A stretch of 64,000 nt of DNA from Lewinellaceae bacterium SD302 (GTDB lineage Bacteria; Bacteroidota; Bacteroidia; Chitinophagales; Saprospiraceae). Both the position numbers and the translations under genes were made by a program. How positions within the stretch are numbered: the first letter of the stretch is position 1; every line of letters begins with the position of its first letter. Below are positions 17,395 to 53,440 of this stretch, piece after piece. Location of the stretch: assembly GCA_002591745.1 (NCBI GenBank), contig PDLQ01000013.1, positions 1 through 64,000 of the forward strand. Reading direction: 5' to 3'. The notes beneath the pieces were generated by a model. It was not told the DNA's origin. It did no database searches and saw only the letters and a list, made by a program, of their open reading frames with translations.

Positions 17395-18807
17395 TCAAAA
17401 ATTCCGCTCAACCGCTCGTAGTAACCAATCCTTTTCCGTGCAGGGGTCGGTGGCTTGTATTTTTTGTCCGAGTTCCCGTTTTGCTACTTTGTCTCCCGGC
17501 GGTAGTTTGCTGGCTTTCTCGGCCAAAGAGAAAATGTTGAGGTAGTTCTTCTGGTGATAACCAAGGTTATTCTTTCGCCTCAACAATGATTTGGTAGATC
17601 GAATATGACTAATGAGCAGGTTGTAATCATCCCGTTCGAAATAAATTTTGAGTTGCAGCACCCTGGCCGTGAGGTGATGAATGAAATCCTGATAATCAGC
17701 CGTTCTTAAGTGGCCCAGTGTTTGGTTGTAGTCACCACGTTTGAAAGAGAGCCGGGCGCGGCTGAGCGATTCCACTTCTTCCCGTTTGTCCTCCGGCAGG
17801 CGCCGGGCGTTCTTTTGCAGAAAGTTTTCCGCCCAGTCCACTTCTTCCAGGCGCAGGGCAATACCCAAAATGTTATTAAAAGTAAAGATGCCAATGTAGC
17901 CGGCTTCGTTGTAAAATATTTTTCGCTCCAGCCCTAGTTTGTATAGAGTGAGCGTACGGGGCAGGTAATCCAATCGGCCCGTATTGCTCTCCCTGAGGCA
18001 GTGGTTGATGGCTAGAATCAAGAGGTTACGTTGGTCCTGGCTCGGGAAAAGGGCGATGTGGAGCATGATCCCTTCCATCAACTCTTCAAAAATACGGTCG
18101 GTATTCGCTCCTTTGTCCTGGTCGCGATACAACAGGGCCGCCAGATAGAAAAGATGAATACCCGGTTCATCGGTTTGGGGGTGATTAGCGTAATAGGCCA
18201 TGCTTTCTTCGAGCAGGGGAGCGAATAGCTCGGACCGGACCTGACGTTGATAAGAAAGGGTGTCGCAGGCTTGGCGAAATCGTTGTGCCAAAAAGAGATT
18301 AGTCAGCGTTTTTTCCTGAGCGTCGATGTTGTGGACCATTTTACGGCTTTGGGAAGCTTTCAAGAAGTATTGCGCTTTTTCCAGCTGATAACTCAAGCGG
18401 TATTGAGCCGTAGCGGCCCAGGGCTTGCTCGAAGCGTATTTCCGGTATTGGTTGATCCGTTTTTGCTGATGCTTCACCAGTCCACGACGACGATATTGTT
18501 GCAACACCTGCTCCCGGTAGGCCCAGGTATCCTGCCGCAAAGCCAGGTAGGCCAGGCAGTCTTCCATGCTCGTCAGAAGTTCGTGGTATAACCGGCGATA
18601 GCGGGCAGCATCGGGTTGCTTGTTACCCTCCAGCTTAGCCAGCACGGCACCGGGGTCCGGCTCAATGCCCAGCCGGTGGTAATGATCGGCCAGCGCGTTG
18701 TAAAGCTCGGCCAGTAGTTTATTACTGTTGTGTAAAGGAGAGGTCAGCCATTCCTTCATAGCCTTTTGCTCCTGATTGTCCAGCGATTTTATGAGGTCGA
18801 CGATCAA
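17395..18807 (-). CDS. Helical module protein, paralog 1 (unknown function)
   Basis: A 470-residue protein without signal peptide or membrane segment, Leu/Arg/Glu-rich and almost all helical by appearance, possibly of TPR type. I do not recognise a named family. Landmarks shared by four paralogs in this window are an N-terminal SP-x-HN motif, a central FTFNN block, LSRARLSFKRGDYNQTL, a LLRRKNNLGYHQKNYLN block and a final WLLRAVERNF. It starts with TTG; a stop lies three codons upstream and there is no ATG. It is divergent from the giant T9SS gene at 19049, with 241 bases between them. Its closest relative is the paralog at 23663-25069, which also faces an SprB-type giant. Confidence 0.85.
   Translation of the reverse strand: MIVDLIKSLDNQEQKAMKEWLTSPLHNSNKLLAELYNALADHYHRLGIEPDPGAVLAKLEGNKQPDAARYRRLYHELLTSMEDCLAYLALRQDTWAYREQVLQQYRRRGLVKHQQKRINQYRKYASSKPWAATAQYRLSYQLEKAQYFLKASQSRKMVHNIDAQEKTLTNLFLAQRFRQACDTLSYQRQVRSELFAPLLEESMAYYANHPQTDEPGIHLFYLAALLYRDQDKGANTDRIFEELMEGIMLHIALFPSQDQRNLLILAINHCLRESNTGRLDYLPRTLTLYKLGLERKIFYNEAGYIGIFTFNNILGIALRLEEVDWAENFLQKNARRLPEDKREEVESLSRARLSFKRGDYNQTLGHLRTADYQDFIHHLTARVLQLKIYFERDDYNLLISHIRSTKSLLRRKNNLGYHQKNYLNIFSLAEKASKLPPGDKVAKRELGQKIQATDPCTEKDWLLRAVERNF
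17481..17491 (+). repeat. TTGCTACTTTG motif inside a gene
   Basis: An exact copy, antisense to the helical-protein gene and encoding part of GDKVAKREL. The paralog at 23663-25069 lacks the word here. Confidence 0.55.
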
Positions 18808-18859
18808 ATCGCACTAGATTTTAATTTAGTATTAATCATATGTGAAAAACTTTGACTAG

Positions 18860-18870
18860 CAAAGTAGCAA
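18860..18870 (-). promoter_or_regulatory. TTGCTACTTTG motif before helical paralog 1
   Basis: Reads TTGCTACTTTGCTAGTCAAA on the minus strand, 53 bases before the TTG start of the helical gene. It forms a back-to-back pair with the plus-strand copy at 18888. Confidence 0.65.
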
Positions 18871-18887
18871 TATTTTTATAATAAACA

Positions 18888-18898
18888 TTGCTACTTTG
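18888..18898 (+). promoter_or_regulatory. TTGCTACTTTG motif before SprB-type giant 1
   Basis: Reads TTGCTACTTTGATAGCCAAA, pointing toward the ATG at 19049, 150 bases away. With the copy at 18860 it makes a divergent regulatory region. Confidence 0.65.
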
Positions 18899-19048
18899 AT
18901 AGCCAAAAGTAAGCAGGATCTAAAACTATTGCTATTAAATGTGCTTGCCTCAGCGCCGAGACCGCCCGATCATTGTAGCATTGGAGTCGGACAGCTAACT
19001 TGATTTTAGGTTACCCGGCCACTTACTCGGACTGAAAACACTTCTCTC

Positions 19049-22000
19049 ATGCGATTCTTACACACCTTTCTTACTTTTTTACTGCTGTTTGTAACGGGAA
19101 TAGTAGCCCAGTGCCCCCAGTACGATCTATCTCACATTCAGGAATCATACGAACTGAACTGTGATAATGATTTTTCGATCACGCTACAAGCTATCCTGGA
19201 TGGTGAGCCGCCGGCAAGTATTGAATGGCGGCGAACCGGGACCATCTTTAGCACGGAAAATGAAGTTACGATTACCAACGTCGCTACCCCCTATGTTCTG
19301 GAAGTGACCGGGCAGGATGGCTGCGTGGAAACGACCAGTTTTGGTGTTACAAATGGGGCCCTCGGGTTTTTACCTTCTACAATCTTACCAATTTATTGTG
19401 CGGGTCCGACTGATCCAATTCCCTACTGTTTAACTTACATGCCATCAGGTGCAACTGCGGAATGGTCGAATGGTGCCACGGGAACGTGTTCAGAAAACAT
19501 TGTAGCCGGGGACACGATCACTGTGTTTTTTTCTACTTTCTCCGGTGGTTGTAAGGACACCATGGAGTACGTTGCTCCTTTTGCCGAGTACGAGATCTAT
19601 GTTTTTGTTGATGGAGATGATTGCGGAGGCCAACAAGTCGCCATAATTCAGGTTTTCGATAATACTATTGCCAATAATGGGCAGCTCGAAGTTTACGTAG
19701 AAAACGTAAATACGAGTGAATCATTCGACACTATGGTTGCAATTGAATCCTCCGGAGGATTTGAATGGAGTTTGCCACCGGGCACGTATGGAGGTTTTGC
19801 GTTCAATCAAAGTGGTTGTGGTGCAAGCCTAAACAACTTTACCATCAATCCTCCGGGAGTTGTTATCGCGACGGCAACCGTCGACAGCGTAAATTGCCCG
19901 GGTGACGCCGATGGCAGCATTTCCGTAACATTCGATGACGGGCAATCACCCTTTACTTATCTCTGGGACAACGGACAAACCACGGCGACCATCACCAATC
20001 TGACCGCCGGAAGCTATACCCTGACGGTCACTGATGCCAACGGCTGCACCGATCAAGCCTCTTATACGGTGTCACAGCCGGATTCATTAGAGATAGAACT
20101 TGTGGAAAGCGGACCCGCGAGTTGCGCGGGCGAACCAGTGGGATATTTGCAAATTGAAGTGACGGGCGGTACGGGAGCCTACGGCTACGCCTGGAGTAAC
20201 GGCGGAGACACGACGCTGATCGACGGCCTGGCCGTAGGCAGCTACTTCGTAACGGTAACCGACGCCAATGGCTGTACCGCCGAAGCCAGCTACGAACTGG
20301 AAGACGGCATCGATGCCATAATTAGTTGGTCGGGGGAAGGAACACTCAACTGTCTTGAGGATGCCGTTACCCTAGCTGCTAGCCCTGACGGGCCTGATTT
20401 TACTTATTTATGGGCCGGCCCCGGCGTGGATGGGCAAACGGATGCCTCCGTTATCGCAACAGAATTAGGGCGCTATTTCGTGACTGTAACTAACGGCAGC
20501 CAGTTGAATTGCACGGGCGTAGACAGCTTCGATGTGGTAGATGGTACGGAACCCTTTGACTTCACCTTGGTCGGGTCGGTTGCCGATTGTGTGGTTGGTG
20601 ATTCCTACATGATCGAAGGATTTGTGGGGGCCGGCGGAGGATACGATTACCTCATTGAATTGGATGGCATTTTCGTTGAAAGCGGACAAATCAATGATCC
20701 GTTTTTTGTTCTCCTGGTTCAAGACCCCGGTCTTTATGAAATCACCCTGGTTAATTTATTTACTGGTTGCGTGGAAACGCGCTTTTGCGAAGTTCTTCCA
20801 TTCACTCCCTTCTCCGTTGAGTTCGCCGTAGACACGGCTGTTTGTTCCACTGGGTCGGCGGATATCATGCCGAATATAATTTCCGGAACTGAGCCTTTTA
20901 CCTGGCTATGGAGTAATGGCGCACAATCGCCTTCCCTGTTCAACGTAGCCAGCGGCACCTACAGCGTTACGGTAACCGACGGCAACGGCTGTATGCACGT
21001 TGAGGAGGTTTTCGGGGGAATCAGTGAGCCCCTGACCGTTGAATTCAATAATACCAACCCGTTTTGCGGAGAAACTGATGGCAGTATCGCCGTCACCAAT
21101 CTGACCAGCGGTATTCCTCCCTTTATTTATAACTGGTCAAACGGTAGCGATTCTTCCACTCTGACGAACGTAGGCAGCGGTACTTACGACCTGACCATAA
21201 CGGATGCCGTGGGCTGTGAAAATACCTGGCAGCTTGTTTTGCTCAACGACTTTCAAGCCAACATCATTGAGGAGCAAATCACCGGCCAGGGATGCGCCGG
21301 GGCTCTGCCGCAGTTAACCGCCATGCCAAATACGGCCAATTTTACTTATTTCTGGACGGGGCCAAATGGATTTACCTCTACGGAAGCAAGCTTTCAAGCT
21401 CCGGAAGCGGGCATTTATACGGTAACGATTTCCGCGGTGGATGGCTCTTGTTCAGACTTCGTAGCGATTGAGGTAAGCGAAGCAGAGGACTTTGCCCTGA
21501 CCGAGATTACGGTAACTCCGGCCCCTTGCTTCGATTTTACCACCTTGGTGCCGCAGTACACTTTCGATCCGGTAGATGAATTTGTCCATCGTTGGATAAT
21601 GAACGGGGATACCATCATCCACCCCGGCCCTGCATTTCAGGCCGAGGCGCCCGGATCTTACGTTTACATCGGAACAAATACGTTTACCGGTTGCGTGGTG
21701 ACCGACAGCTTGTTTTTGGCTACCGTCGGTGGACCTTGCGAAGGTGTAGTCGGTCGCCTCTGGGCAGTACAGAGTGACTGTAGCTTGAATGGTACCGAAA
21801 TACCCGTAGCGAATACGCCCATTCGGATTGAAGAAATTGATGGTACGAGTGTTCATTATACGGTTACCGACGGTGAGGGGGTTTATCAGGCAGATTTACC
21901 ACCGGGAACCTACGAAGCTTTTCCTCTGCCATTTGCTACGGATATTTTTGAAGATTGCGACAACATGCAATTGATCCAGGTTGATGAGGACGGAAACGCG

Positions 22001-23458
22001 CTGGACGATCTTTTCATCATTTTTGAAGAAGCTTGCCCCTCGATGTACGTGAATCTGGCGGTGCCGAATCTAATCCGTTGTTTCTCAAACGATGCCTTCT
22101 TGTATTACTGTAATGATGGCCCCTCCCTGGCCGAAGATGCGACTATTACGGTTGAGCTGGATCCCTTTCTTTTCTTCCAGGGGGCCAGCATTCCCCCGGC
22201 CAGCGTAGCAAATCACTTAGTGACTTTTGAGTTGGGCGATCTCCCACCTTTCACCTGTGGAACGATTGAATTGAATTTATTGGTCAGCTGTGAGGCGGAG
22301 ATCGGCCAGACTCACTGTGTAGAAGCCACTGCTACCCCTAACGAGCCCTGCCCGGCACCCGATGACTGGAACGGTGCCAACCTGGTGCTGGGAGCGGATT
22401 GCCTGGCGGATAGCCTGGAGTTCAGAATTACCAACAACGGCACGGCCACTACGACCCAGGGACTCAGCTATTTAGTCATCGAAGACGGTATCATGATGCT
22501 GAACGGGCCGACGGACGGGCCTTTCCTCAATCCTGCCGAAGAATTCCGCTTTCGCTTGCCGGCCAACGGCAGTACTTACCGCTTAGAAACCAATCAGGAG
22601 GCTAATAACCCCGGCTTCGGAATGCCCACATTAGTGGTAGAGGGCTGTGGAACCGACCAGGCCGGAAATTTCTCGACCGGTTTCGTTAATCAACTGCCGC
22701 TCAATGATACTGACGTGAGCTGGTACGATATTTTGTGCCGCCAGAACGTCGGTGCATACGACCCCAACGAGAAAATGGGACTTCCGTTGGGAGTAGGGGA
22801 GCCGAAACTCATCAAACCGGGTACACCCATCGTTTACGATATCCAGTTCCAGAATACCGGTACGGATACGGCCCGGACCGTGGTGCTACGCGATACTATC
22901 GCTCCGGAATTTGATCTCAATACGCTCCGGGTCGGTGCGGCTAGCCATAACTATATCTACACACTCGATTCTAACCGGGCGCTGACGATTACTTTTGCCG
23001 ACATAATGTTGCCGGACAGTTTCACTAATGTAGCGGCATCCCAGGGCGTGATCTCCTATTACATCGAGCATTACGCCGATCTGCCCCTGGGCACTGAGTT
23101 ACGCAATCAAGCGGCCATTTACTTCGACTTCAATGAACCGATCTTTACCAGTAACACCTTGCATACGCTGGGCGAGGACTTTTTATCTACTCTTACAAGT
23201 GACTTCTCGAGCGGCCACAAACTCACGGTCTTCCCCAACCCGGCCGACCGCCTGTCACAGTTAACTTTTGAGTGTTCGACTCCCGGTGCTTACTTACTGG
23301 AAATTTTTGATGGACTTGGCCGTAAAGTCATGACCCACCGCAGTAACGGTGATCTTACTACCTTGGACATGAGCCAGGAACCCGTGGGTTGGTACCTGGC
23401 CCGCGCTACAAGCCTGGATGGAAGCATTATCGGGCTGCGAAAGTTTGTATTGAAATAA
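19049..23458 (+). CDS. Giant T9SS protein with SprB-like repeats (1469 aa), module 1
   Basis: Signal peptide MRFLHTFLTFLLLFVTGIVA, then an N-terminal Cys-rich domain. SprB-like or PKD-like repeats cover about 275-760, each with a block such as YLWDNGQTTATITNL followed by AGSYTLTVTDANGC. A carboxypeptidase-regulatory-like domain lies at about 900-985 (GRLWAVQSDCSLNGTEIP). A DUF11-like region follows (RCFSNDAFLYYCNDGPSLAE), then the conserved block AYDPNEK...IQFQNTGTDTA...NQAAIYFDFNEPIF (DUF7619-like), then a T9SS sorting domain (VFPNPADR). SprB-type repeats are known from gliding adhesins of Bacteroidota. It is transcribed divergently from the helical protein at 17395-18807 and is a full-length paralog of the gene at 25390-29820. 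Confidence 0.9.
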   Translation: MRFLHTFLTFLLLFVTGIVAQCPQYDLSHIQESYELNCDNDFSITLQAILDGEPPASIEWRRTGTIFSTENEVTITNVATPYVLEVTGQDGCVETTSFGVTNGALGFLPSTILPIYCAGPTDPIPYCLTYMPSGATAEWSNGATGTCSENIVAGDTITVFFSTFSGGCKDTMEYVAPFAEYEIYVFVDGDDCGGQQVAIIQVFDNTIANNGQLEVYVENVNTSESFDTMVAIESSGGFEWSLPPGTYGGFAFNQSGCGASLNNFTINPPGVVIATATVDSVNCPGDADGSISVTFDDGQSPFTYLWDNGQTTATITNLTAGSYTLTVTDANGCTDQASYTVSQPDSLEIELVESGPASCAGEPVGYLQIEVTGGTGAYGYAWSNGGDTTLIDGLAVGSYFVTVTDANGCTAEASYELEDGIDAIISWSGEGTLNCLEDAVTLAASPDGPDFTYLWAGPGVDGQTDASVIATELGRYFVTVTNGSQLNCTGVDSFDVVDGTEPFDFTLVGSVADCVVGDSYMIEGFVGAGGGYDYLIELDGIFVESGQINDPFFVLLVQDPGLYEITLVNLFTGCVETRFCEVLPFTPFSVEFAVDTAVCSTGSADIMPNIISGTEPFTWLWSNGAQSPSLFNVASGTYSVTVTDGNGCMHVEEVFGGISEPLTVEFNNTNPFCGETDGSIAVTNLTSGIPPFIYNWSNGSDSSTLTNVGSGTYDLTITDAVGCENTWQLVLLNDFQANIIEEQITGQGCAGALPQLTAMPNTANFTYFWTGPNGFTSTEASFQAPEAGIYTVTISAVDGSCSDFVAIEVSEAEDFALTEITVTPAPCFDFTTLVPQYTFDPVDEFVHRWIMNGDTIIHPGPAFQAEAPGSYVYIGTNTFTGCVVTDSLFLATVGGPCEGVVGRLWAVQSDCSLNGTEIPVANTPIRIEEIDGTSVHYTVTDGEGVYQADLPPGTYEAFPLPFATDIFEDCDNMQLIQVDEDGNALDDLFIIFEEACPSMYVNLAVPNLIRCFSNDAFLYYCNDGPSLAEDATITVELDPFLFFQGASIPPASVANHLVTFELGDLPPFTCGTIELNLLVSCEAEIGQTHCVEATATPNEPCPAPDDWNGANLVLGADCLADSLEFRITNNGTATTTQGLSYLVIEDGIMMLNGPTDGPFLNPAEEFRFRLPANGSTYRLETNQEANNPGFGMPTLVVEGCGTDQAGNFSTGFVNQLPLNDTDVSWYDILCRQNVGAYDPNEKMGLPLGVGEPKLIKPGTPIVYDIQFQNTGTDTARTVVLRDTIAPEFDLNTLRVGAASHNYIYTLDSNRALTITFADIMLPDSFTNVAASQGVISYYIEHYADLPLGTELRNQAAIYFDFNEPIFTSNTLHTLGEDFLSTLTSDFSSGHKLTVFPNPADRLSQLTFECSTPGAYLLEIFDGLGRKVMTHRSNGDLTTLDMSQEPVGWYLARATSLDGSIIGLRKFVLK

Positions 23459-23647: not shown

Positions 23648-23662
23648 TGCCGAAAGTTAGCC

Positions 23663-25069
23663 TTAAAAATCCCGCTCAACTGCCCGCAGCAGCCATTCCT
23701 TTTCCGTGCAGGGGTCAGTGGCCATGATTTGCGCTTTTAGTTGTCCTGCAACTTCCCGGTCGCCCGGCGGTATTCGCACGATTTTTTCGGCCAACCGAAA
23801 GATGTTACGGTAATTACGCTGGTGGTAACCGATATTTTTGCGGCGGCCCAGTAGAGACTTGGTCGAACGAAGATGACTGGTAAGCAGATTGAAATCGTCC
23901 CGTTCGAAAAATATTTTAAGCTGGAGGAGCCGCGCGGTAAAATGGTGAATGAAATCCTGGTAATCTGCCGTTTGCAGGAAACTTAGTGTAGCGTCGTAGT
24001 CGCTTTTTTCGTATGCGAGTCTGGCGCGGTTCAGGGAGACAACTTCTTCTCTTTTTTCCTGCGGAAGTCGGGAAGCGTTGGCTTCCAGGAATTCATCCGC
24101 CCAACCTACTTCCCCGAGTTTCAAAGCCACGCCGACAATGTTGTTAAAGGTGAAAATGCCGATGCGCCCGCGCTCGTAGAAGGTCTTGCGCTGGAGTCCT
24201 AGTTTGTAAAGGTCGAGGGTTTGTGACAGGAACTCCCTTCGGCCGGCGTTGCTTTGACGCAGGCAGTGATTTATGGCCAGTACGAGCAAATCACGTTGGT
24301 CGTTATGCGGGAAATCATCGATGTAAGCCTCGATGCCACTTTTAAGGTCGGCAAAGACAGGGTCGTTGTCCTGCCGCAAATAGAGTAGGGTAGCGAGGTA
24401 GAACAAGTGGATGCCGGGCTGTTCCGGTTTGGGATTTTGGGCGTAGGCAGCCAGGCATTCATCCAGCAGGGGCAGGTCGATCTGTTTATTGGTCAACCTC
24501 AGATGCGCCAGGGTCTCGCAGGCCTGACGAAAACGCATGGCCAGCATGTGGTGAAATATGCTGGTTTCCTGTTCGCTGAGATTATGGCGATCATTACGTT
24601 TGCTGAGGGCCATCAGGTGATAGCGTTCTTTTTCCAGTCGGTGATCGTGTTGGTAACGGGCTAGTGAAGCAGTAGGAGCGGCCGTAGGGTAGCGGCGCTG
24701 ATAGCGGCTGATTCGAGTGGTAAGATGGCGGAATAGACCACGTTCGTTGTACAGCCGCAAGGAGATGTTTCTCGACTGAAAATCATCCGTTCGGAATTTT
24801 TCGTAGATCAGGTAGTCTTCAATTTGCCGCAATAACTCATGATCCAGACGGGTGGCGAGGTTTTTCCTGAAGGGGCGGTCGGAAAAGGCCCTCGCCCAGG
24901 CTTTTTCGGGTACGGGGGCAACGTTGAGGTCGTGGATTTGCTCGCAGAGGTAGTCGAAGAACGGAATTAGTTCTGCTTTGCCGTTATGGGCGGGAGAGAG
25001 GAGCCAGTTGCGGGCAGCGGTTCGCTCGGAAGGACTAAGGTCTTGCAGAAGGGAGTAGAGAAGTGGCAG
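23663..25069 (-). CDS. Helical module protein, paralog 2 (unknown function, no ATG start)
   Basis: Similar along its length to the 470-residue paralog at 17395-18807 and ending in WLLRAVERDF. The frame continues upstream of 24832 with the family's N-terminus (PSERTAARNWLLSPAHNGK), so the protein is about 468 residues. There is no ATG; the frame is closed by a stop at 25109-25111. CTG at 25069 is the start that best fits the paralogs; a TTG at 24832 would remove the conserved N-terminal 79 residues. It faces the SprB-type giant at 25390. It may use a weak start or be a gene losing expression; the frame itself is intact. Confidence 0.75.
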   Translation of the reverse strand: MPLLYSLLQDLSPSERTAARNWLLSPAHNGKAELIPFFDYLCEQIHDLNVAPVPEKAWARAFSDRPFRKNLATRLDHELLRQIEDYLIYEKFRTDDFQSRNISLRLYNERGLFRHLTTRISRYQRRYPTAAPTASLARYQHDHRLEKERYHLMALSKRNDRHNLSEQETSIFHHMLAMRFRQACETLAHLRLTNKQIDLPLLDECLAAYAQNPKPEQPGIHLFYLATLLYLRQDNDPVFADLKSGIEAYIDDFPHNDQRDLLVLAINHCLRQSNAGRREFLSQTLDLYKLGLQRKTFYERGRIGIFTFNNIVGVALKLGEVGWADEFLEANASRLPQEKREEVVSLNRARLAYEKSDYDATLSFLQTADYQDFIHHFTARLLQLKIFFERDDFNLLTSHLRSTKSLLGRRKNIGYHQRNYRNIFRLAEKIVRIPPGDREVAGQLKAQIMATDPCTEKEWLLRAVERDF

Positions 25070-25214
25070 GACTGAGGGATTGAAGGAAGAAGAAATGTAG
25101 GGCAGAAATCACCAGGAGTAGCTCCATATTTAGGTCTTTGGCCAACTATAATAATTGACAATATTTTATATGTGATGAATAGTTGAAGTTAATTTTATAC
25201 TGTAAAATAGATCA

Positions 25215-25225
25215 TTGCTACTTTG
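25215..25225 (+). promoter_or_regulatory. TTGCTACTTTG motif before SprB-type giant 2
   Basis: Reads TTGCTACTTTGATAGCCAAA, the same tail as the copy at 18888, and points toward the ATG at 25390. No minus-oriented copy was seen in this divergent region. Confidence 0.65.
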
Positions 25226-30994: not shown

Positions 30995-30999
30995 GACTT

Positions 31000-31135: not shown

Positions 31136-31279
31136 CACAACGACACGGGCCGACCAACTAAAAAGCTATTTTGAATAATCCATTCCTTACCTTCGTCCCG
31201 ATTTTGGTGATTGAAGGTGGAAACCACAAGTAGATCAAGTTGCACAAGTCAATTCAGCTAGTCCTTAGCTTGTTTCTTT

Positions 31280-31460
31280 TGCGTTCCTGTGCTCTTGTTT
31301 TCTGTCCTGCAATCTTAAAAGGGAATCCGGTGAAAATCCGGAGCAGTCCCCGCTGCTGTAAGTTTCGATAAACGCCCGCCGGCGTAACCACTATCTGAGG
31401 ATGGGAAGGGCCGGTACGGGAGAAACGAGCCAGAAGACCTGCCAATGCCACATAATTCCT
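31280..31460 (+). ncRNA. Cobalamin riboswitch
   Basis: The core of the B12 riboswitch is visible: GGGAATCCGGTGAAAATCCG at 31321-31340, continuing into GAGCAGTCCCCGCTGCTGT, and the B12-box-like segment GAGCCAGAAGACCTGCC at 31428-31444. It lies just before a TonB-dependent receptor, so cobalamin binding should turn down expression of the receptor and the following gene. The outer ends are approximate. Confidence 0.93.
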
Positions 31461-31589
31461 AGCTCGCGGTGCTGACGAAGTTTGGAAGGCTTGTCGATCC
31501 TGATCTTTATCGGGTAGACCCCGTCTTTGCCCTATGGTAATGATCTGCCTTTCGCCTACGCCGGTATTCCGAAAAAGCCAGTTGCACTT

Positions 31590-42485: not shown

Positions 42486-43349
42486 ATGAGAGGCATCACC
42501 TCCATCATCCCACTGCTGCTTTGCCTGTTTGCTATTGGCAACCAGCCATCTGCCCAAGAATTTGAACTCGGCCTCATGGGCGGAGTATCTCTTTACAGTG
42601 GCGACCTCAGCCCGGACGAATTCGGTCTCTATTTCGAAGACCTCAACCCTGCGGGCGGCGCCTATATCCGTTACCGGCCCACGAGCCGTCTGGCCTTACG
42701 CTTCCAGGGCATGTTCACCCAGCTATCTGCTACGGACAATGCACCCATCCCCGGTGACGTGGATGAGCGTCAGGAACGCTTGCTTAACTTTCGCAGTAAT
42801 CTGACCGAATTCAGCCTGACCGCCGAACTCGATCTTTTTTACATTGGCGACAAAGACGATAATCACCTCGCCCCCTACGTTTACGGAGGCGGAAGCATCA
42901 TTTCCTTCAATCCAGAAGGGAATCTTGATGGTAACTGGGTCGAACTCCAGCCCCTGGCTACCGAAGGACAGGGCATTCAGGGAAACCCGAACTACGATCC
43001 GGCTCGGTATTCTCTCAACGAGATCGTGCTGAACGTTGGTGGCGGTTTACGCTGGCGCGTCAGTGAGAAGTTCGTCCTCGGCCTGGAAATCGGTGGCCGC
43101 CGCGTTGCCTCCGATTACCTCGATGATGTCTCAAACACTCAGGTCGATTATCTCGACATTCTGGAAAATACGGGCTCTCAGGCCGCTGAGTTTTCCAATC
43201 CCAATATCGCTAACCCGACCGACGTACGCGGGCAAACCTATACCCGTGGTGGAGAGTTCGCCGATTGGTTCTTCCACGGAGGCCTGACGGTGGGCATCAC
43301 ATTGGGTGAAGGTAGTAGTAACGGTAAAACCGGTTGTTACGAGTTTTAA
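42486..43349 (+). CDS. Outer membrane beta-barrel protein (DUF6089-like)
   Basis: Signal peptide ending near SAQ (residue 24), then an amphipathic beta-barrel pattern: ELGLMGGVSLYSGDLSP, YIRYRPTSRLALRFQGMF, HLAPYVYGGGS and LNVGGGLRWRVSEKFVLGLE. This matches the DUF6089 family of Bacteroidota in layout and length. It is an integral outer membrane protein of unknown function. A family A inverted repeat follows directly after its stop. Confidence 0.88.
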   Translation: MRGITSIIPLLLCLFAIGNQPSAQEFELGLMGGVSLYSGDLSPDEFGLYFEDLNPAGGAYIRYRPTSRLALRFQGMFTQLSATDNAPIPGDVDERQERLLNFRSNLTEFSLTAELDLFYIGDKDDNHLAPYVYGGGSIISFNPEGNLDGNWVELQPLATEGQGIQGNPNYDPARYSLNEIVLNVGGGLRWRVSEKFVLGLEIGGRRVASDYLDDVSNTQVDYLDILENTGSQAAEFSNPNIANPTDVRGQTYTRGGEFADWFFHGGLTVGITLGEGSSNGKTGCYEF

Positions 43350-43416: not shown

Positions 43417-43429
43417 ATCACCTACGTGC

Positions 43430-46400: not shown

Positions 46401-46918
46401 CCAGCTATGTAAAATCCGCATTGAGTAACCGAAAACAGACTATTGTTACTATCTAGGAATTCAACGGAGAATGGAGAGTTGGTTAACTCTATCGACAAAT
46501 CTTCACTATCGTCTGTTATTTCGAAAGTGAAACTTAGCAAATTTGAACCGTCAGGAAGAGCTACAGGGCCGCCACTAATTGTAGACCAAGACACACGGAT
46601 GTCTCCTGGGTTAGGAGCATTTACAAATGTAAAAGGGATTGATTCATCTGAAGAAGACTGATAGTTCATTTGTATAGGGTCATAAACGATACCAAATTGG
46701 AAGCCATTAACATTTTCAAAGCCCGTCACTATCGTCTCAAATATCACCATCTGCCCAGCTACGTAAGGACCTTCCGTAGTTGGCGTCAAACAGACATCCA
46801 CGACGGGTTGGGCGAAGAGGTTCGTCAAAAAGAGTAAACTGAAAAACAGACTGAGATATATTTTTTTGGCTAACAAAGTAGCAATGCCATCAAAAGAGCA
46901 CGATTGTAAAAAAGTCAT
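43430..46918 (-). CDS. Giant T9SS protein with four cohesin-like modules, module 3
   Basis: The ATG at 46918 gives a signal peptide with a long n-region (hydrophobic part IYLSLFFSLLFLTNLFAQ); a TTG at 46876 within the dispersed word would give a shorter one. Four tandem cohesin-like modules follow (about 38-575), each starting with a VDVC or IDFC strand and a module pattern like GFQFGIVYDPIQMNY. Then come an Ig-like domain (GVCGEVSDSTGLAGWLVTF), a DUF11-like region (RPCFENNLIRVHYGNYG), the block AYDPNDK...IRFQNTGTDTA...NDAAIYFDFNEPI and a T9SS sorting domain (VYPSPVINELYF). It is a paralog of the gene at 48765-51830 and divergent from helical paralog 3. Confidence 0.88.
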   Translation of the reverse strand: MTFLQSCSFDGIATLLAKKIYLSLFFSLLFLTNLFAQPVVDVCLTPTTEGPYVAGQMVIFETIVTGFENVNGFQFGIVYDPIQMNYQSSSDESIPFTFVNAPNPGDIRVSWSTISGGPVALPDGSNLLSFTFEITDDSEDLSIELTNSPFSVEFLDSNNSLFSVTQCGFYIAGPPIIIETIDFCLKTELGIYSQGETVWTDIRVENFINIEAVTFSVTYDPEKLEFIEATGNQTLIDMVDVIGSDGFLVITYGGIIGDDPMTLPDMSEMVSLTFEVLESIVELPIELLESPDGIEAFTAPYNGIPVPYTICGELPVPNPPIDVCFLITNMEVLNGEEHGPALEASDFTNVTDFNFRFSYNAEENDFIEINPHSMLAGATATEITPGLVEVTWSGPSTTLDDSEAFMDVVFEATVNFADRNFELITTDGFSSITHANEEDGLFIFCGTEANQIPVDFCLDFEPGVYAPGQETTIAFDVANFTSITSISAEVVYDAFQLDFIEGVDNGLLGDSLVIAEEEPGRISIRYNGTDEVPVSVISGTALLGLTFEVQEPTTFLNIDFSDNTTAFWALSNMGPLPVNNCGVPLVNSAASNVTCSLRLGNSGVCGEVSDSTGLAGWLVTFTDVYSSSVYSGITGDDGQAFMNVPIGDYIQHWTPPGNPLNWNYCNDLQVTIAQENEFVNFDHTATVVFECPYLQVAISSGNLRPCFENNLIRVHYGNYGTVAAENAYVDVAIDSDFTILSSSIAHTDLGNGLYRFDLGTVNISVDGNITITGHIDCDFPVGAAICASATIYPRPLDCTPPDPSFQGANLQVTPSCDNDSIRFQIKNIGDGPSGEIEFHVIEDVIIYNNGTIDIDAGELMEMAFAAEGTTFRLELDRPEAAPYLSHPLGIEEGCGMLTGGGISVGFVNDFSLLDDDPWFDRYCQETSAAYDPNDKQAIPAGVGEDNDIFPNQTMDYKIRFQNTGTDTAFNVTLRDQIDTSVLNLSTFTAGASSHPYRVMILNNELVFTFENILLPDSTTNPIASNGYVHFQIAQQPDLPDGTVIENDAAIYFDFNEPIITNISRQTIDRNLLISSTRNFTVGEVDIPVYPSPVINELYFDLVSQRTVTELVITDLFGRVVLRQRLLGGRVSSIDLSRLIAGQYAYQLIQSGRLLQSGTVVKH
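46874..46884 (-). promoter_or_regulatory. TTGCTACTTTG motif at the start of cohesin-like giant 1
   Basis: Reads TTGCTACTTTGTTAGCCAAA on the minus strand, directly before the hydrophobic signal segment. The TTG at 46876-46874 is in frame, so the word may hold the start codon or lie inside the coding region. Confidence 0.5.
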
Positions 46919-47041: not shown

Positions 47042-47052
47042 TTGCTACTTTG
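47042..47052 (+). promoter_or_regulatory. TTGCTACTTTG motif before helical paralog 3
   Basis: Reads TTGCTACTTTGAAGTCAAAA, 68 bases before the TTG start at 47121 and pointing to it. Confidence 0.65.
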
Positions 47053-47120: not shown

Positions 47121-48488
47121 TTGAAGAACCAATTAAATCGTCTGCTGGCCACCTTTTCAACCGAAGAACTCAACCGCTTTGAGTTATTTCTGGCTTCCCC
47201 TTACTTCAACCGAAAGCCAGGTCTGCTCTTGCTTTTTCGTAATAACTACCGCTGCGACACGGACGGAGGCATGGGGGAGAAAGAGAAAGTTCAAGATCGC
47301 CTCGAGCGCAGCGAACTACTGGCCCTGGCCGAAAAATTCTTAATCCTGGAAGCCAGGCAGAGCGACTTCGGACCCTTGCAAGATCAAATGCTGTTACGGG
47401 AAATCGCCCGCAAACGAGTCCAACCCTTGCGGGTAAAACAAGCCGGAAAGCGGGCCGCTAAAATTCTTTCTGATACCCCCGACGGTACAACTCGCGCCAG
47501 ACTGGCCTACGAATTAGAGTGGGAAGACACGGCAGCCAAACTTAACAACCGCCGCCTGCAGATCGAAGAAGCCAACGCTACCCGCCGGTTACAGGAACGC
47601 AGCTTCCTGCTGGAAAAATTACGACTGGCCTGTGAGTCGGTATCCACCCAAGCCATCGACCCCGGCCTGTTGGAAGATGGCCTGTTGCCAACTGTGTTAA
47701 ACTACCTGGAGGCGAGCCCCGAACTGCTGACGAAGGATGCGCTATTGAGTACTTACCTGTATTGCTACCGCTCGTTGATCGATGCAAATGACCATCAGTC
47801 TTTCGAACGTCTTCTATATCTCCTGAGCAAGCCTACTTATTTCGACCCGGCTGAAACCGGCAGCCTCCTGTTATTGGCGATCAACGCCTGCATCCGCCGC
47901 ATCAACCAAGGCCAGTCAGATGCCGCTAATGCTGCTTTTGAACTCTATTCCATCGGTTTGGAAAGTGGCTACCTACTCACTGCTGGAAAGGTGTCCCGCT
48001 TTACTTTCAGCAACGTGGTCGTGCTAGCCCTGAAAGCCGGAGATTACGCTCGGGCCGGCGCCTTCATCGATCGCTACGCCGCCAAACTGGAAAAATCCGT
48101 TGCCCAATCCACCGAAGCGCTCAACCGGGCCCGCCTGGCTTACGAGCAGGGGCAGTTGCCCCAGGCCATGAACTTCCTCCGCTCCGCTCGTGATGAGGAT
48201 GTTCTTACTACGCTTAACATCCGAATCTTACAAATGAGGGTCTACTACCAGCTCCAAAATTTTCGCCTCCTGGACGCTCACTTGGATGCCCTGGACATCT
48301 ACCTGCGCCGCCGCAAAAACTCACTCGGCTACCATTACAAAGCTTACCGAATACTGACGGCCTCCGTTCGGAAACTCCGACGTATTAACTTTCACGAGCG
48401 AGGACAGATCGAAAGTTTCCGTCGTGAAATTGAGGAGGCCGAGAATTTGCCGGAGAAGAACTGGTTGTTACGGATAGTAGCATCCTGA
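47121..48488 (+). CDS. Helical module protein, paralog 3 (unknown function)
   Basis: A 455-residue helical protein with no signal peptide, starting with TTG. It shares with its paralogs the N-terminal SP-x-FN motif (FLASPYFNRK), the FTFSNVVVLALKAGDYARA block, the STEALNRARLAYEQGQLPQA block, the YLRRRKNSLGYHYKAYR block and a final WLLRIV. It is closest to the paralog at 52034-53440. It is divergent from the cohesin-like giant at 43430-46918, 202 bases away. Cytoplasmic; a TPR-like role in protein binding is possible but unproven. Confidence 0.86.
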   Translation: MKNQLNRLLATFSTEELNRFELFLASPYFNRKPGLLLLFRNNYRCDTDGGMGEKEKVQDRLERSELLALAEKFLILEARQSDFGPLQDQMLLREIARKRVQPLRVKQAGKRAAKILSDTPDGTTRARLAYELEWEDTAAKLNNRRLQIEEANATRRLQERSFLLEKLRLACESVSTQAIDPGLLEDGLLPTVLNYLEASPELLTKDALLSTYLYCYRSLIDANDHQSFERLLYLLSKPTYFDPAETGSLLLLAINACIRRINQGQSDAANAAFELYSIGLESGYLLTAGKVSRFTFSNVVVLALKAGDYARAGAFIDRYAAKLEKSVAQSTEALNRARLAYEQGQLPQAMNFLRSARDEDVLTTLNIRILQMRVYYQLQNFRLLDAHLDALDIYLRRRKNSLGYHYKAYRILTASVRKLRRINFHERGQIESFRREIEEAENLPEKNWLLRIVAS

Positions 48489-48764: not shown

Positions 48765-51700
48765 TTATTCTTTAACAACTACGCCCGTCTGGATCAATTG
48801 CCCGGAGCGCAGGAGGCGGTAAGCGTAACGTCCGCTTGGCAGCGTCGTTAGGTCCAACTGGCTGCGGCTACCTCCGGCTAAGTTTCGTTGAATCAGTTGA
48901 CGACCGAAGACATCGTAGATAATCACTTCGGCACTTTGATGGTGCTCACTCAAATCCAGGTTCAGTAAGCCATTGGTCGGGCTGGGGTAGACCGGAATGG
49001 CCGCGCCCTGGGCTTGGAAGTTGACCGTACGGCTAGGCAGTAAATTGCGGTCGATGGTCTGACGGCTGGGTTCAGTGACGATCGGATCGTTAAAGTCGAA
49101 GTAGATAGAGGCGATATTTTCAATGATCGTACCATCCGCCAGGTCTGGTTGCTGAGCGATGGAGAAGTGGACGAAGCCGTGGCTGGCTGCTTCATTGGTC
49201 AGGCTGTCTACGAGCAGGATGTTTTCGAAAGTGAAAATCAGTTCGTTGCCTTCGATGTTGAGGCGGTAGGGGTGGCTGCTACTGCCACTGCTGAGGGTGT
49301 TTATATTCAAGACACTGGTATCGATGGTATCACGCACCACCACAGTGAAGGCCGTATCCGTACCCGTGTTCTGGAAGCGAATCTTGTAATCCATCGTTTG
49401 GTTGGGCAGAATGTCGTTGTCCGGGCCTACGCCGGCGGGGATGGCCTGTTTGTCATTGGGGTCATAGGCGGCGCTGGTTTGCTGGCAGTAGCGGTCTAGC
49501 CAGAGGTCACCATCCAGTAAGGAAAAGCCATTTACCAGGCCGCTGCTGAAGCCGCCACCGGGCAGCGTGCCACAGGCCTCGCTGATATCCAGTCCCTGAC
49601 TCAGGTAAGGAGCGAACTCCGGCAGATCGGTTTCCAGCCGATAGGTTCTGCCGTTGGCTGGTACGCTGAAGGGCATCGATTCACCGAATTCCAGGTCGAT
49701 GGGGGTGCTCATGTAGATCACCACGTCCTCGATGATGGTCAGGCTGATCTCACCAGTAGGGCCGCTACCGACGTTTTCTACCAGGAAGCGCACGCTGTCA
49801 CCGTCGCATTGAGCGCTTACTTTTAGCTCTCCGCCACCAAATGAAGGATTGTCAAATGAGCAATCCGTCTCGTAGGGGTAAATGGTGGCCGAGGCGCATA
49901 GGCTGGCACCTACTGGGTAGTCGCAGTCGATTTGGCCGGCGATCCAAAAGAAGCCACTCTCATTCGGGGCCAGGTCACCCAATTCAAAACGGTAAGTACC
50001 ACCGCCCAGATCCGTGTAAGGCAGGGTGCTGCTATTGGGTACAAAGGCCTGTTCGATGATTACATCTATGTAGGCATCTTCAGCTACGGCGGTGCCCTGG
50101 TTGTAGTAATCTACGACGAAAGTGTTGTTTTCGAAGCAGGGACGCAGGTTGAAGGAAGAGATCGTAACCGCCACTTCTGAACACTCGGCAAGTACGCCGA
50201 CCGTAGCTGTGTCCACCTCCGTGATATTCGTGGTGTCGGTTACCTCGAAGGGCATCGGAACGCAGTTGTCCCACAGTTCGGGGTTGCCTGGGGCGTGCCA
50301 TTCGTAGGTGTAGTTGCCTACGGGCAGCGATAGATAAGCGTTACCGTACTCTCCGACGGAAGCAGAGTGTTCCTGGTTGGTGACATCATTGGTGAATGTG
50401 ACAATCCAGTTGAGAAGGGGGTCGCCGGTAGGTATGCCGGAACAATTGTTTTGCTCGTCCTGAAAAACGGTAACGTTTACGTTGGCCAGAATGTAGCCAA
50501 GGTAGTGCAGGTCACAAGCAGTAACTGGTTGCTGCTGGGTGATTTCGATGTCCCGGCTGGTGTAGAAGTCGCCAACCGTCGGGTCGATCTCCAGATTAAC
50601 GGCGTCCACATCCTGGTTGGCGGCCAGACGAACGGTAAACAGAATGTCATCGTCGGCCAGTACGATACCTGATTCGTCCCAATCGATTAAGGTAGTCCGT
50701 AATCCTCCGTCCGGCAGTGTTTCGACGCTGATGGCAGCTACGTCATTAGGGAGATCCAATTGAACGTCTACGTAAGTGAAATCGTTGGCATCAAAACGTA
50801 GTGGCAAACCAGTGACCACCATACCGACAAAGTTATTGACGCGGATCGGAATTTCAATGATCTCATCGGTAGTGAAGGGACCGGCCGGGTTGTCCGGACA
50901 AAAGTCGACGAAGTTGTCTGGGTCGAAGGTACTGCCATCGCAAAAGTCATAGGTGCCTTCTACGTCGTCTAAAAAGGTAACTGTAGCGTTCCCTTCGTCT
51001 ACGAGAAGTTGAAGATTTGGGTTCGGGGAGGTTTGTATGGCGCTGAAATTAAAGGTGATGAGGCCTGCGCCATCCACTAGGCTCAGTGGTGTATCGTTGA
51101 CCCAGCTGACGAGAATTTGGCCCGGATTAGGTTCAGAAATGGTCAGGCCGGGACCGAGTTCTACTTGGGCTACCCATTCGTTATACTGCAATAGTGCGGC
51201 GTTGTATTGCAGTAGATAGGTAAAGCTGGTCACTTCGTTAAAGCCACTCCAGAAGATGCTCTGGCCAGTGATCGCGTCGCCAGCGTTGATCGGTCCGTCA
51301 GTGATGCTGGTACACATGGTCAATTCGAAATTATTGCCGGCCTGGCCGTCGTTGATCGGCTCGCCACAGTAAGTAGTCGGCAAGGTATTGGCATCGAGGC
51401 CAACGGCTTCCAGTGCATTCTCGCCGGCTGTAGCCAGAATGTTGAGGTTCATGAATGGAATGTCCGTATCGGCCGTGAAAGTGAGTGTGAAAAAGGCAGT
51501 GCCGTCAGGGTAGGTAATACCGGTAACTTGTGGATCGGTATAGACCATACGGATTTCACCGGGGGTTACGGCATTAAAGTCACTGGCGGCGGCTTCTACG
51601 CTGGTACCGCTCGAGAAACTAACGTCCTGCTCATCGAAGGCCAGGAAAAGCTGGAGTCCGATAATGTCGGTAATGCCAGTAGCGATCACGGGAATAGTAA

Positions 51701-51830
51701 TGGTCTGTCCGGAGGTAAATGGTCCGGCGGGTACTTCCGGACAGAGGTCGACAGTCTGGGAATAGATAACCGATGTCAACAGCATACTCAGGGCCAGGAA
51801 AAGGTGTTGTAGTAGAGATTTAATTTGCAT
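48765..51830 (-). CDS. Giant T9SS protein with three cohesin-like modules (1021 aa), module 4
   Basis: Signal peptide MQIKSLLQHLFLALSMLLTS. Three cohesin-like modules (about 27-480) each begin with a VDLCP/VDFCP-like strand and contain a GLQLFLAFDEQDVSF-like pattern. An Ig-like domain, a DUF11-like region (RPCFENNTFVVDYYNQG), the block AYDPNDK...IRFQNTGTDTA...NIASIYFDFNDPI and a T9SS sorting domain (VYPSPTNGLLNL, then TGVVVKE) follow. Cohesins are beta-sandwich modules that bind dockerins in cellulosomes; the resemblance here is by pattern only. It is divergent from helical paralog 4. The gap 48489-48764 to its end holds only a short GC-rich hairpin near 48530-48548. Confidence 0.88.
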   Translation of the reverse strand: MQIKSLLQHLFLALSMLLTSVIYSQTVDLCPEVPAGPFTSGQTITIPVIATGITDIIGLQLFLAFDEQDVSFSSGTSVEAAASDFNAVTPGEIRMVYTDPQVTGITYPDGTAFFTLTFTADTDIPFMNLNILATAGENALEAVGLDANTLPTTYCGEPINDGQAGNNFELTMCTSITDGPINAGDAITGQSIFWSGFNEVTSFTYLLQYNAALLQYNEWVAQVELGPGLTISEPNPGQILVSWVNDTPLSLVDGAGLITFNFSAIQTSPNPNLQLLVDEGNATVTFLDDVEGTYDFCDGSTFDPDNFVDFCPDNPAGPFTTDEIIEIPIRVNNFVGMVVTGLPLRFDANDFTYVDVQLDLPNDVAAISVETLPDGGLRTTLIDWDESGIVLADDDILFTVRLAANQDVDAVNLEIDPTVGDFYTSRDIEITQQQPVTACDLHYLGYILANVNVTVFQDEQNNCSGIPTGDPLLNWIVTFTNDVTNQEHSASVGEYGNAYLSLPVGNYTYEWHAPGNPELWDNCVPMPFEVTDTTNITEVDTATVGVLAECSEVAVTISSFNLRPCFENNTFVVDYYNQGTAVAEDAYIDVIIEQAFVPNSSTLPYTDLGGGTYRFELGDLAPNESGFFWIAGQIDCDYPVGASLCASATIYPYETDCSFDNPSFGGGELKVSAQCDGDSVRFLVENVGSGPTGEISLTIIEDVVIYMSTPIDLEFGESMPFSVPANGRTYRLETDLPEFAPYLSQGLDISEACGTLPGGGFSSGLVNGFSLLDGDLWLDRYCQQTSAAYDPNDKQAIPAGVGPDNDILPNQTMDYKIRFQNTGTDTAFTVVVRDTIDTSVLNINTLSSGSSSHPYRLNIEGNELIFTFENILLVDSLTNEAASHGFVHFSIAQQPDLADGTIIENIASIYFDFNDPIVTEPSRQTIDRNLLPSRTVNFQAQGAAIPVYPSPTNGLLNLDLSEHHQSAEVIIYDVFGRQLIQRNLAGGSRSQLDLTTLPSGRYAYRLLRSGQLIQTGVVVKE

Positions 51831-51991
51831 AGTTGAATTGTTCAGAGTCGGCGCAAATGCCTGGGATGGGATTATAATTTTGGCGGTTAGCTCAAATTAC
51901 TGGGTGGTTAATTATTTCGACGATACAAATATGCGACAAGCAAGCCCGGATCGAAAGTACAGAATTGAACATTTATAGGTTTACTAAAACA

Positions 51992-52002
51992 TTGCTACTT
52001 TG
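51992..52002 (+). promoter_or_regulatory. TTGCTACTTTG motif before helical paralog 4
   Basis: Reads TTGCTACTTTGTTAATCA, 31 bases before the ATG at 52034 and pointing to it. Confidence 0.65.
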
Positions 52003-52033
52003 TTAATCATCTGATATACATATATTTGCGGTA

Positions 52034-53440
52034 ATGAATTATAGTGTTTCAAAGCAGTTAACCACACTTCTTGGTAGCCTCGACCGCGAAGAAAAGTCGG
52101 GGATCAAGCAGTTTTTACGCTCTCCTCATCATAACCAGCGGGAGGAATTGACCGATTTTGCGGAAATTTTATTGGACTATCAAAGTAGCAAAGCTAGTAA
52201 TCAGAGGCGGCTGATCCGGCTCGCGGAACGAACAACCAAAGGCAAAGCCATCAAATGGCACCTGCTCAATAGCGACCTGCTGCGAAAGATCGAGGAATAC
52301 CTGACTGAGCGCAGTGAACGACTTCCCACATTGATTGGTCGCCAGTTAGACCTGAAGTACGGACTGCGTTCCCGCCAACAGCCCCAGCGCGTAGCTGCTG
52401 CCGCACGGCGGCTGAACAAACAGCTGGAAAAATTACCGGATGGCGTTACCCGCAGCCGTATCGACTACCAGGTCGCCTGGGAAGAACTGAGTGAACAATT
52501 AGCCGTCCGCAAACTCACGGCTGAAGCAGCTAATAGCGTCAGGGAATTGCACGAGCGCAGTACTTTACTGGAAGCCCTCCAACTGGCCTGTGAATCGCTA
52601 TCTACCCGTACGATCGACAGTGGTGCTCTAGCTCCCGGCTTGTTACCCATTTACCTCAATCACCTCGAATCCGGTCAGCTAATAGCGACTGATCGAGTAC
52701 TGGCCATCTATTACTACTGCTACCGGACAATGGAGAGCGTGGAGAATGAAGCGGCCTTCCATCAACTGCGGCAGCGACTGGTAGACTTGCCCTTACTGGA
52801 TGAAAGGGAAGCCACCGACATACTGCGCATGGCCATCAACGCCTGTATCCGCCGGGTGAACAACAACCGACCCGAGTTCAACGAAGTGGCCTTGGACCTA
52901 TACGACCTCGGGCTGGAAAAAACCTATTTACTGGACCATGGTCAACTATCCCGCTTCACTTACAGCAACGTGATCGCTCTGGCTTTAAAATCGGACAACC
53001 CGAGTCGTGCCCAGAGCTTTATGGAACGCTTCAGCTCCCTATTGCCTGCCGAGTTCGCCCAATCAACCGAAGCGCTCAATCGAGCACGCCTCGCTTACCA
53101 CGAAAAGAGATTGGGCGAAGCTATGGATTGGTTGCAATCTGCTAAAGATCAGGATGTTTTGACCACACTAAATATCCGAATACTACAAATGCGGGTCTAT
53201 TACGAACTGTCCGAATTTCGCCTCCTGGATGCCCACCTGGATGCCCTGGACATCTACCTCCGCCGGCGCAAAGATTCGTTGGATTACCACTATAAAGCCT
53301 ACCGGAATCTGGTGGGCTTCGTACGTCGCTTTCGCCGGCTCAATCCTTACGACGCCGAGGCACTGAAAGCATTTCGGGAAAAAGTGGCCAGTACGGAAGG
53401 ATTGCCGGAGCGGGGGTGGCTGGTGGGAATTGCGGGTTGA
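52034..53440 (+). CDS. Helical module protein, paralog 4 (unknown function)
   Basis: A 468-residue helical protein without signal peptide, the only one of the four paralogs with an ATG start. It has the same landmarks: FLRSPHHNQREEL near the start, FTYSNVIALALKSDNPSRA, STEALNRARLAYHEKRLGEA, YLRRRKDSLDYHYKAYRN and a final GWLVGIAG. It is divergent from the cohesin-like giant at 48765-51830, 203 bases away. It is close to paralog 3 in sequence. Confidence 0.86.
   Translation: MNYSVSKQLTTLLGSLDREEKSGIKQFLRSPHHNQREELTDFAEILLDYQSSKASNQRRLIRLAERTTKGKAIKWHLLNSDLLRKIEEYLTERSERLPTLIGRQLDLKYGLRSRQQPQRVAAAARRLNKQLEKLPDGVTRSRIDYQVAWEELSEQLAVRKLTAEAANSVRELHERSTLLEALQLACESLSTRTIDSGALAPGLLPIYLNHLESGQLIATDRVLAIYYYCYRTMESVENEAAFHQLRQRLVDLPLLDEREATDILRMAINACIRRVNNNRPEFNEVALDLYDLGLEKTYLLDHGQLSRFTYSNVIALALKSDNPSRAQSFMERFSSLLPAEFAQSTEALNRARLAYHEKRLGEAMDWLQSAKDQDVLTTLNIRILQMRVYYELSEFRLLDAHLDALDIYLRRRKDSLDYHYKAYRNLVGFVRRFRRLNPYDAEALKAFREKVASTEGLPERGWLVGIAG
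52181..52191 (-). repeat. TTGCTACTTTG motif inside a gene
   Basis: Lies on the minus strand within the helical paralog 4 gene, encoding part of LDYQSSKAS. Confidence 0.5.

Follow-up and report, generated by a model that had tools for sequence, protein, structure and literature searches.

Head-to-head pairing of a cytoplasmic helical protein family with type IX secretion cargo genes in Bacteroidota

Introduction

The first 64,000 nucleotides of contig PDLQ01000013.1 from Lewinellaceae bacterium SD302 (assembly GCA_002591745.1), hereafter the window, carry four divergent gene pairs in which a helical cytoplasmic protein faces a giant surface protein of the kind exported by the type IX secretion system (T9SS), and the question arises whether such pairs are functional units or just the outcome of a local duplication. 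An earlier note on this DNA had proposed units in which the helical protein would be a regulator, a chaperone or a phase-control factor, and had regarded mere local duplication as the explanation to adopt if homologs in other places were mostly found away from such T9SS genes, or if the trees of the partners disagreed strongly. Our analysis shows that the four pairs are not a local duplication: 109 of the 159 helical genes with a complete 5' neighbour, sampled from this and other genomes, face a divergent gene encoding a T9SS tail or a DUF7619 domain. As a mechanism, we put forward a module made of a surface-protein gene and a private local regulator that also controls its own gene, a proposal to which we give slightly less than an even chance.

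To our knowledge, the control of single T9SS cargo genes has been little studied. In the portion that we drew on, a review of T9SS effectors treats the machine, the tails and their processing (PMC10202324). Our literature searches brought up no account of a helical/T9SS pair like this one; as far as they reach, the protein family and its pairing are undescribed, the divergent arrangement itself being known.

Four gene pairs in one window

All eight frames of the four proposed pairs are in place and face each other (Table 1). The helical proteins align over their full length, with 52, 27 and 24% identity to copy 1. The expected common half of the giants was also recovered, their best alignment lying at the C-terminal side around the DUF7619 domain, which includes the AYDPN block, and a Pfam scan agrees with the SprB repeats of copies 1 and 2 and the cohesin domains of copies 3 and 4. 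Other details had to be amended. The part previously described as DUF11-like scores far better as DUF7619 (PF24595, threshold 27 bits), reaching 122.9, 133.5, 146.7 and 146.7 bits in giants 1 to 4. The T9SS tail ascribed to the four giants holds for giants 1, 2 and 4 (45.0, 66.6 and 28.9 bits with the TIGR04183 sorting domain), and fails for giant 3, which at 18.6 bits stays below the NCBIfam cut-off of 23 bits. As for the start of helical protein 2, the codon at 25069 is a CTG and the first canonical start in frame is a TTG at 24832, giving a protein of 389 aa; no M occurs among the 13 translated codons above 25069, and no ATG, GTG or TTG preserving the N-terminal region was found in the examined stretch (24833-25108, minus strand), so that either a rare start codon is used or the gene is decaying. 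A promoter-like 11-mer at 46874-46884 falls inside the frame of giant 3 (from 46918), whose true start may therefore be further in. The window pairs are part of a total of 12 helical matches in the SD302 genome.

Linkage to T9SS cargo genes

The neighbourhood of the family was analysed in 140 stretches, mostly taken around the best-scoring matches among those listed, a sample that is not random and omits many of the helical matches of genomes G023, G025, G309 and G344. It contains 170 distinct helical genes of at least 380 aa, whose 5' neighbour is cut in 5 cases and missing in 6. T9SS tails and DUF7619 domains were assigned with our own profiles, which started from window sequences and were refined by iteration over the sampled loci, and open reading frames (ORFs) were called mechanically from ATG, GTG and TTG, so some neighbours counted as other are spurious frames. 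With these means, the 109 divergent T9SS-type genes on the 5' side (median gap 194 bp) compare with a T9SS tail in 31 of 160 complete neighbours on the 3' side, and in 79 of 649 comparison ORFs from the first set (at least 200 aa, neither helical nor 5' neighbour). The same head-to-head layout occurs in genomes that share only the phylum with SD302 (loci L244, L245, L246, L250 and many loci of G309 and G344). A search for related loci with a four-row profile returned a single one, L141, in which a 965-aa DUF7619/T9SS protein faces a helical gene.

Some loci of G309 and G344 (L219, L222, L237 and L256) show proteins of about 110 aa facing the helical genes, which by eye look like fibronectin type III domains.

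The partners and their co-inheritance

The AYDPN/DUF7619 part typical of the window giants is found in only 32 of the 109 partners, so what the helical genes pair with is T9SS cargo at large. Of the 77 partners without it, nine were scanned against Pfam, revealing cadherin or immunoglobulin-like domains (three proteins), a subtilase with PKD domains, a thermolysin-like protease with leucine-rich repeats, NHL repeats, a weak MG2 match (one protein each) and nothing but the tail in the remaining two. With such different domains, T9SS export is the common factor, and the tail domain PF18962, which is of the type A kind, was matched by seven of the nine (E up to 0.001). The tail subtype was also considered as the signal that is recognised, and discarded: without the DUF7619 proteins, paired and unpaired tails are weakly separable, with an area under the curve of 0.62, just above the 95% point of the shuffles (0.61; mean 0.54). 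Most T9SS genes of the SD302 genome are in fact unpaired, with 12 helical genes for at least 150 matches to the T9SS tail.

The window itself encodes further T9SS-tail proteins (1871-10351 and 30044-30910 on the plus strand, 14066-16552 on the minus strand), one of them of 2826 aa, and none directly beside a helical gene.

For the DUF7619 type, comparison of the partner trees, which the earlier note had advised, gave largely agreeing results. In a quick tree that has three long end branches (L127, L258 and L268), the 32 paired proteins and 14 sampled unpaired ones lie on opposite sides of one branch (SH-aLRT 99), the unpaired state being deduced from the helical match lists and not from inspection of neighbours; the unpaired rows came from 15 loci, namely the top match in each of 14 genomes and one additional locus, and 14 of them were used, as L279 had no usable frame. 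Some genomes, such as G000, G002 and G005, have both paired and unpaired DUF7619 proteins. On the helical tree, 5 label changes suffice for the rows whose partner has DUF7619, versus 28.8 in shuffles; these rows are 31 and not 32, because helical protein 2 was used as its 389-aa frame and the tree took proteins of 400 aa or more, and the label for partners without T9SS features also covers rows with missing or cut neighbours. Moreover, Mantel tests on DUF7619 pairs gave r 0.83 (p 0.001) for nine pairs of the SD302 genome and r 0.69 for all 32. The helical protein and its DUF7619-type cargo are thus inherited together. When only the tails are compared, their distances correlate with those of the helical proteins in G000 (0.45, p 0.013) and G021 (0.42, p 0.010); the same comparison for all pairs within genomes (-0.26 versus a shuffled mean of -0.32, p 0.017) has an effect too small to be used. 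Regarding the pairs as functional units, the neighbour count and the DUF7619-type trees are in favour, and the pairing extends beyond cargo with the AYDPN block. Linkage and co-inheritance suggest that a given helical protein either controls its partner at the surface or serves it.

A helical family without a name

The family has no name in the libraries searched. None of the four window copies gives a Pfam or NCBIfam model over cut-off or reaches the gathering score of a Pfam tetratricopeptide repeat (TPR) model, and PADLOC, PHROGs and NCBIfam offered nothing consistent over the helical members. The family profile does match designed TPR structures (such as 8bu0 and 2fo7) at E 2.9e-10, a likeness confined to one short stretch of about 42 residues (profile positions 330-371), and TPR_1 appears at E up to 0.01 in 4 of 68 members; the N-terminal part, which carries an SPxFN motif, has no match that is consistent over members. 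The protein would thus probably adopt a TPR-like alpha-solenoid fold. It is cytoplasmic, as a signal-peptide-like start is missing in nearly all members (a crude signal-peptide rule is passed by 6 of 170 and a membrane-helix rule by 4 of 170), and it is somewhat basic, with a median isoelectric point of 8.75, or 8.96 for the N-terminal part.

SARP-type regulators combine a winged helix-turn-helix (wHTH) with a TPR-like BTAD domain. A small N-terminal helical part followed by a TPR-like C-terminal part may recall that plan; a SARP identity was nevertheless rejected, as neither wHTH nor BTAD was matched by Pfam in the members scanned, nor BTAD in the SD302 genome.

In other genomes of the order, proteins of 514-542 aa (L186-L190, L193 and L196) match the profile weakly in the TPR-like part and lack the SPxFN start; they are perhaps a distant sister family.

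Distribution across genomes

A profile made from the four copies found matches in 29 of 40 relatives, in addition to those of SD302. For the phylum, a wider profile of 68 members was used, which gave matches in at least 27 of 395 genomes, a lower bound because up to 4 candidates were scored per genome, and matches above 100 bits in 12 of the 395. Full scoring of 12 positive genomes revealed 51 matches in G309 (a count that includes a short fragment and a frame split into two pieces) and 39 in G344. Both genomes carry the label of the same phylum but not of the same class, and their helical rows fill one side of one branch in the helical tree. Both genomes (loci L218-L237 and L252-L257, respectively) measure 3.7-3.8 Mb and show several helical genes in tandem.

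Within the genus the family is patchy, with a match above 100 bits in 13 of 21 genomes. The other 8 have DUF7619 matches and no helical match above that score, so the helical protein is dispensable for this cargo class, a fact that we count in favour of a regulator. The T9SS translocon protein SprA (PF14349) occurs in 303 of the 395 genomes. The helical-positive set of 27 includes 26 with SprA, among them every one of the 12 genomes matched above 100 bits; the genome where it was not found, G307, shows a helical match of just 43.8 bits, in the TPR-like region. With SprA in so many genomes, this co-occurrence alone is a weak link.

Intergenic regions and candidate cis-elements

Candidates for a regulatory site came from comparisons of orthologs. 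In ortholog group A, all 8 genus genomes carry the 13-mer TTGTTGAAAAAAA (up to 2 mismatches) at two places relative to the helical ATG, -113 to -116 and +10, and 6 of them have a further copy at -12 to -14. The SD302 member of this group, whose start is uncertain, has two copies 103 nt apart. The exact 12-mer TGTTGAAAAAAA occurs 33 times in the 8 group A genomes, 11 of them inside the group A locus, the reversed control giving 6 in total. In addition, the beginning of the helical frame is constrained: when codons for the same residue are compared, codons 2-12 keep the same codon at a frequency of 0.76 in group A and 0.74 in group B, versus 0.40-0.46 further in. The partner frames of group A are constrained as well, but their 5' ends are probably intergenic and were not used. 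The putative operator-like sites would be strong in group A, with a conserved start region in group B, and not general. Some k-mers are enriched in the intergenic regions of the genus (TGTTGAA, 14 of 27 versus 7 of 129); they stem from orthologous loci and are not independent.

In the window, the intergenic regions carry copies of the 11-mer TTGCTACTTTG, facing one way or both ways (Table 1). As an operator shared specifically by the pairs it is ruled out by its 826 copies in the 5.5 Mb SD302 genome, versus 4 of the reversed control; it is rather a strong promoter-like element of general occurrence in this organism, and exceeds the usual Bacteroidota -7 motif in length. A rule for leaderless starts (TAnnTTTG ending 2-14 nt before the start) was also dropped, as it applies to 8 of 111 aligned helical starts and 24 of 903 other genes, being commoner yet rare.

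Table 1. Gene pairs and promoter-like elements in the 64,000-nucleotide window
Feature	Position	Strand	Remarks
Helical protein copy 1	17395..18807	-	470 aa, TTG start; partner is giant 1
Giant 1	19049..23458	+	1469 aa; SprB repeats, DUF7619, T9SS type A tail
Helical protein copy 2	23663..25069	-	468 aa if from CTG; canonical start first at 24832
Giant 2	25390..29820	+	SprB repeats, DUF7619, T9SS type A tail; frame open from GTG 25309
Giant 3	43430..46918	-	Cohesin domains, DUF7619, weak T9SS tail
Helical protein copy 3	47121..48488	+	455 aa, TTG start
Giant 4	48765..51830	-	1021 aa; cohesin domains, DUF7619, T9SS tail
Helical protein copy 4	52034..53440	+	468 aa, ATG start
Inverted repeat, 25-nt arms, 88%	18851..18907		Between helical 1 and giant 1; two opposed TTGCTACTTTG copies
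Promoter-like 11-mer TTGCTACTTTG	25215..25225	+	Pair 2 intergenic region
Promoter-like 11-mer	47042..47052	+	Before helical 3
Promoter-like 11-mer	51992..52002	+	Before helical 4
TTGCTACTTTG, starts in the window	1949, 13833, 17369, 17481, 18860, 18888, 25215, 31000, 32132, 40432, 46874, 47042, 51992, 52181, 62441, 62740		

A proposed local regulator and the chaperone alternative

How could a helical protein act on its neighbour? The unrelated outer parts of the nine scanned partners and the weak separability of the tails leave the intergenic region as the clearest common feature of the pairs. As the linkage is independent of the role of the cargo, and nearly so of its tail, this shared region is also what the helical protein likely acts on. 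Repeats and constrained starts indicate the same place, and a local self-controlling regulator is consequently favoured. Under this proposal, the helical protein would act on the intergenic region common to both genes, and in doing so would set the expression of the divergent T9SS cargo gene as well as that of its own gene. We infer that it controls the cargo gene, that it would be the binder of the group A repeats and that it probably works on DNA rather than RNA. As for the choice that the earlier note had left between regulator and chaperone, the evidence leans to the former (repeats, constrained starts, varied partners) and does not settle the matter. Nothing was seen that points to phase control, although no search was aimed at invertible DNA or slipped repeats.

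Several observations weigh against a local regulator. Neither Pfam nor NCBIfam recognised a DNA-binding domain in any of 68 members (E up to 0.01), and a Pfam scan of 38 N-terminal parts gave scattered single matches, with no DNA-binding domain among them; a domain of a new kind is conceivable. The four window pairs have mainly general promoter elements between their genes, and across the whole family no shared motif, repeat or k-mer was found. Direct repeats occur at 58 of 121 helical starts family-wide versus 39-52 in shuffles and, with a stricter setting, at 8 of 98 non-redundant starts versus 0-5, not clearly above. Codons 2-12 are unconstrained in group C (0.39) and hardly constrained in the orphan group (0.56 versus 0.49-0.58). 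Moreover, the linkage has gaps: the remaining 5' neighbours are 32 divergent genes without a tail, 13 other genes on the same strand and 5 helical genes on the same strand, and in a whole orphan clade (L096-L099 and L125) the 5' neighbour is on the same strand and has no T9SS tail. Co-inheritance is not uniform either, as shown by the five DUF7619 pairs of G021 (Mantel r 0.22, p 0.35), by tail-only distances that do not correlate in G309 (-0.21), G344 (-0.18), G023 (0.15, p 0.22) and G034 (0.18, p 0.19), and by a mild mismatch in pair 1: among giants its closest counterpart is that of C82 (73%), whereas its helical protein resembles the pair 2 protein (56%) more than the C82 protein (51%).

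The orphan proteins, all five 52-74% identical to that of L096 and with a close relative in L092 (where the 5' side is cut off), suggest that for some members a linked cargo may be unnecessary, which would suit a regulator acting in trans. The gene next downstream of the helical one in L096, L097 and L098 looks by eye like a SpoU-type methyltransferase, which we take to be rlmB, and in L125 a gene that is presumably of the same kind lies about 4 kb downstream.

Much of this picture could also be produced by a cargo-specific cytoplasmic chaperone or targeting factor, binding the nascent T9SS precursor and either keeping it fit for Sec export or delaying its folding. The TPR-like profile match would fit, as would the near lack of signal-peptide-like starts in the helical proteins, the agreement of the DUF7619-type trees, the slight separability of paired tails and the nature of the partners as T9SS cargo; even where the divergent neighbour lacks a recognised tail, the crude signal-peptide rule is passed in 17 of 32 cases, as it is by 198 of 240 T9SS proteins and also by 380 of 1020 other ORFs. 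Cognate gene pairs of a cargo and its shuttle are moreover described for T9SS, though the shuttles act at the outer membrane (PMC12618676, the part consulted). On the other hand, divergent genes give separate transcripts, repeats at the start region are not expected for a chaperone, and T9SS tails vastly outnumber helical genes in SD302. The genus genomes with DUF7619 proteins and no full-length helical match, together with the variety of the partners and their ordinary tails, weaken the chaperone further, and we consider it unlikely, while granting it a real share of the probability. A post-transcriptional regulator, with RNA of the cargo leader or of its own start region as the binding target, would explain why the group A repeats flank the start codon on both sides, why the reduced synonymous change extends into codons 2-12 of groups A and B, and perhaps the somewhat basic character of the family. 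However, one of the group A repeats lies at a promoter-like TTTG some 114 nt upstream, and TPR-like folds usually bind proteins, which makes an RNA target quite improbable.

TPR-only proteins of the Rap type hold or sense another regulator, and a helical protein that does the same, itself without nucleic acid binding, would agree with a TPR-like profile in which no DNA-binding domain is recognised; we see little probability in it. As for a by-product of local duplication or a selfish cassette with no joint function, it would account for four copies within one window, for the patchiness in the genus and for the dozens of matches in a single genome, but not for a layout repeated elsewhere in the order and in genomes of the same phylum only, with unrelated partners, nor for a linkage mainly on the 5' side or for agreeing DUF7619-type trees. 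This last explanation is strongly disfavoured, and we regard it as very improbable indeed.

Comparison with known systems and implications

A local regulator has precedents in its layout. Conserved divergent synteny with a regulator is considered a strong hint of function in the portion we used of a study on MocR/YczR regulators (PMC4944035), which cites Korbel 2004. As presented there, MocR/YczR and yczE keep a head-to-head synteny over long distances, only a sub-population of the targets is paired and the paired members have features of their own, in all of which they resemble the helical pairs. The differences are that those regulators have a recognised wHTH, whereas the libraries recognise none in the helical family, and that the targets of the helical pairs have an export signal in common and not a function. 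More generally, the head-to-head layout of divergent transcription regulators is present in the family (109 of 159 on the 5' side versus 31 of 160 on the 3' side), and the DNA-binding domain is not recognised. The other near arrangement is that of T9SS type B cargo with its SprF-like shuttle, where, according to the part of the source at hand (PMC12618676), a dedicated and co-specific gene also stands beside the cargo, with several pairs per genome. Those shuttles operate on type B tails and do so at the outer membrane, unlike the helical proteins, which have no signal-peptide-like start and whose scanned partners mostly match the type A kind of tail.

Extended to Bacteroidota, the local regulator would be part of an undescribed layer of T9SS control, in which self-regulating, one-to-one cytoplasmic regulators stand head-to-head with their cargo, regardless of its role, dozens per genome and about 50 in one of them, a tentative generalization that we think possible and would rather doubt than assert. 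If true, each cell could set its surface repertoire gene by gene. The family marks a subset of cargo by position, offering a direct handle on one surface protein through one helical gene, and the pairing would connect cargo of unknown role with a partner. The libraries, too, may gain a family of nucleic-acid-binding proteins or of chaperones.

Other features of the window

Between the two groups of pairs, a frame at 42486-43349 (plus strand), which adjoins the end of giant 3, matches the T9SS component PorG below cut-off (94.1 bits versus 130). A cobalamin riboswitch (31273-31460, plus strand, 98.4 bits) lies ahead of the gene of a TonB-dependent receptor (31527-33491, plus strand), for which the best NCBIfam match, below cut-off, is a B12 receptor.

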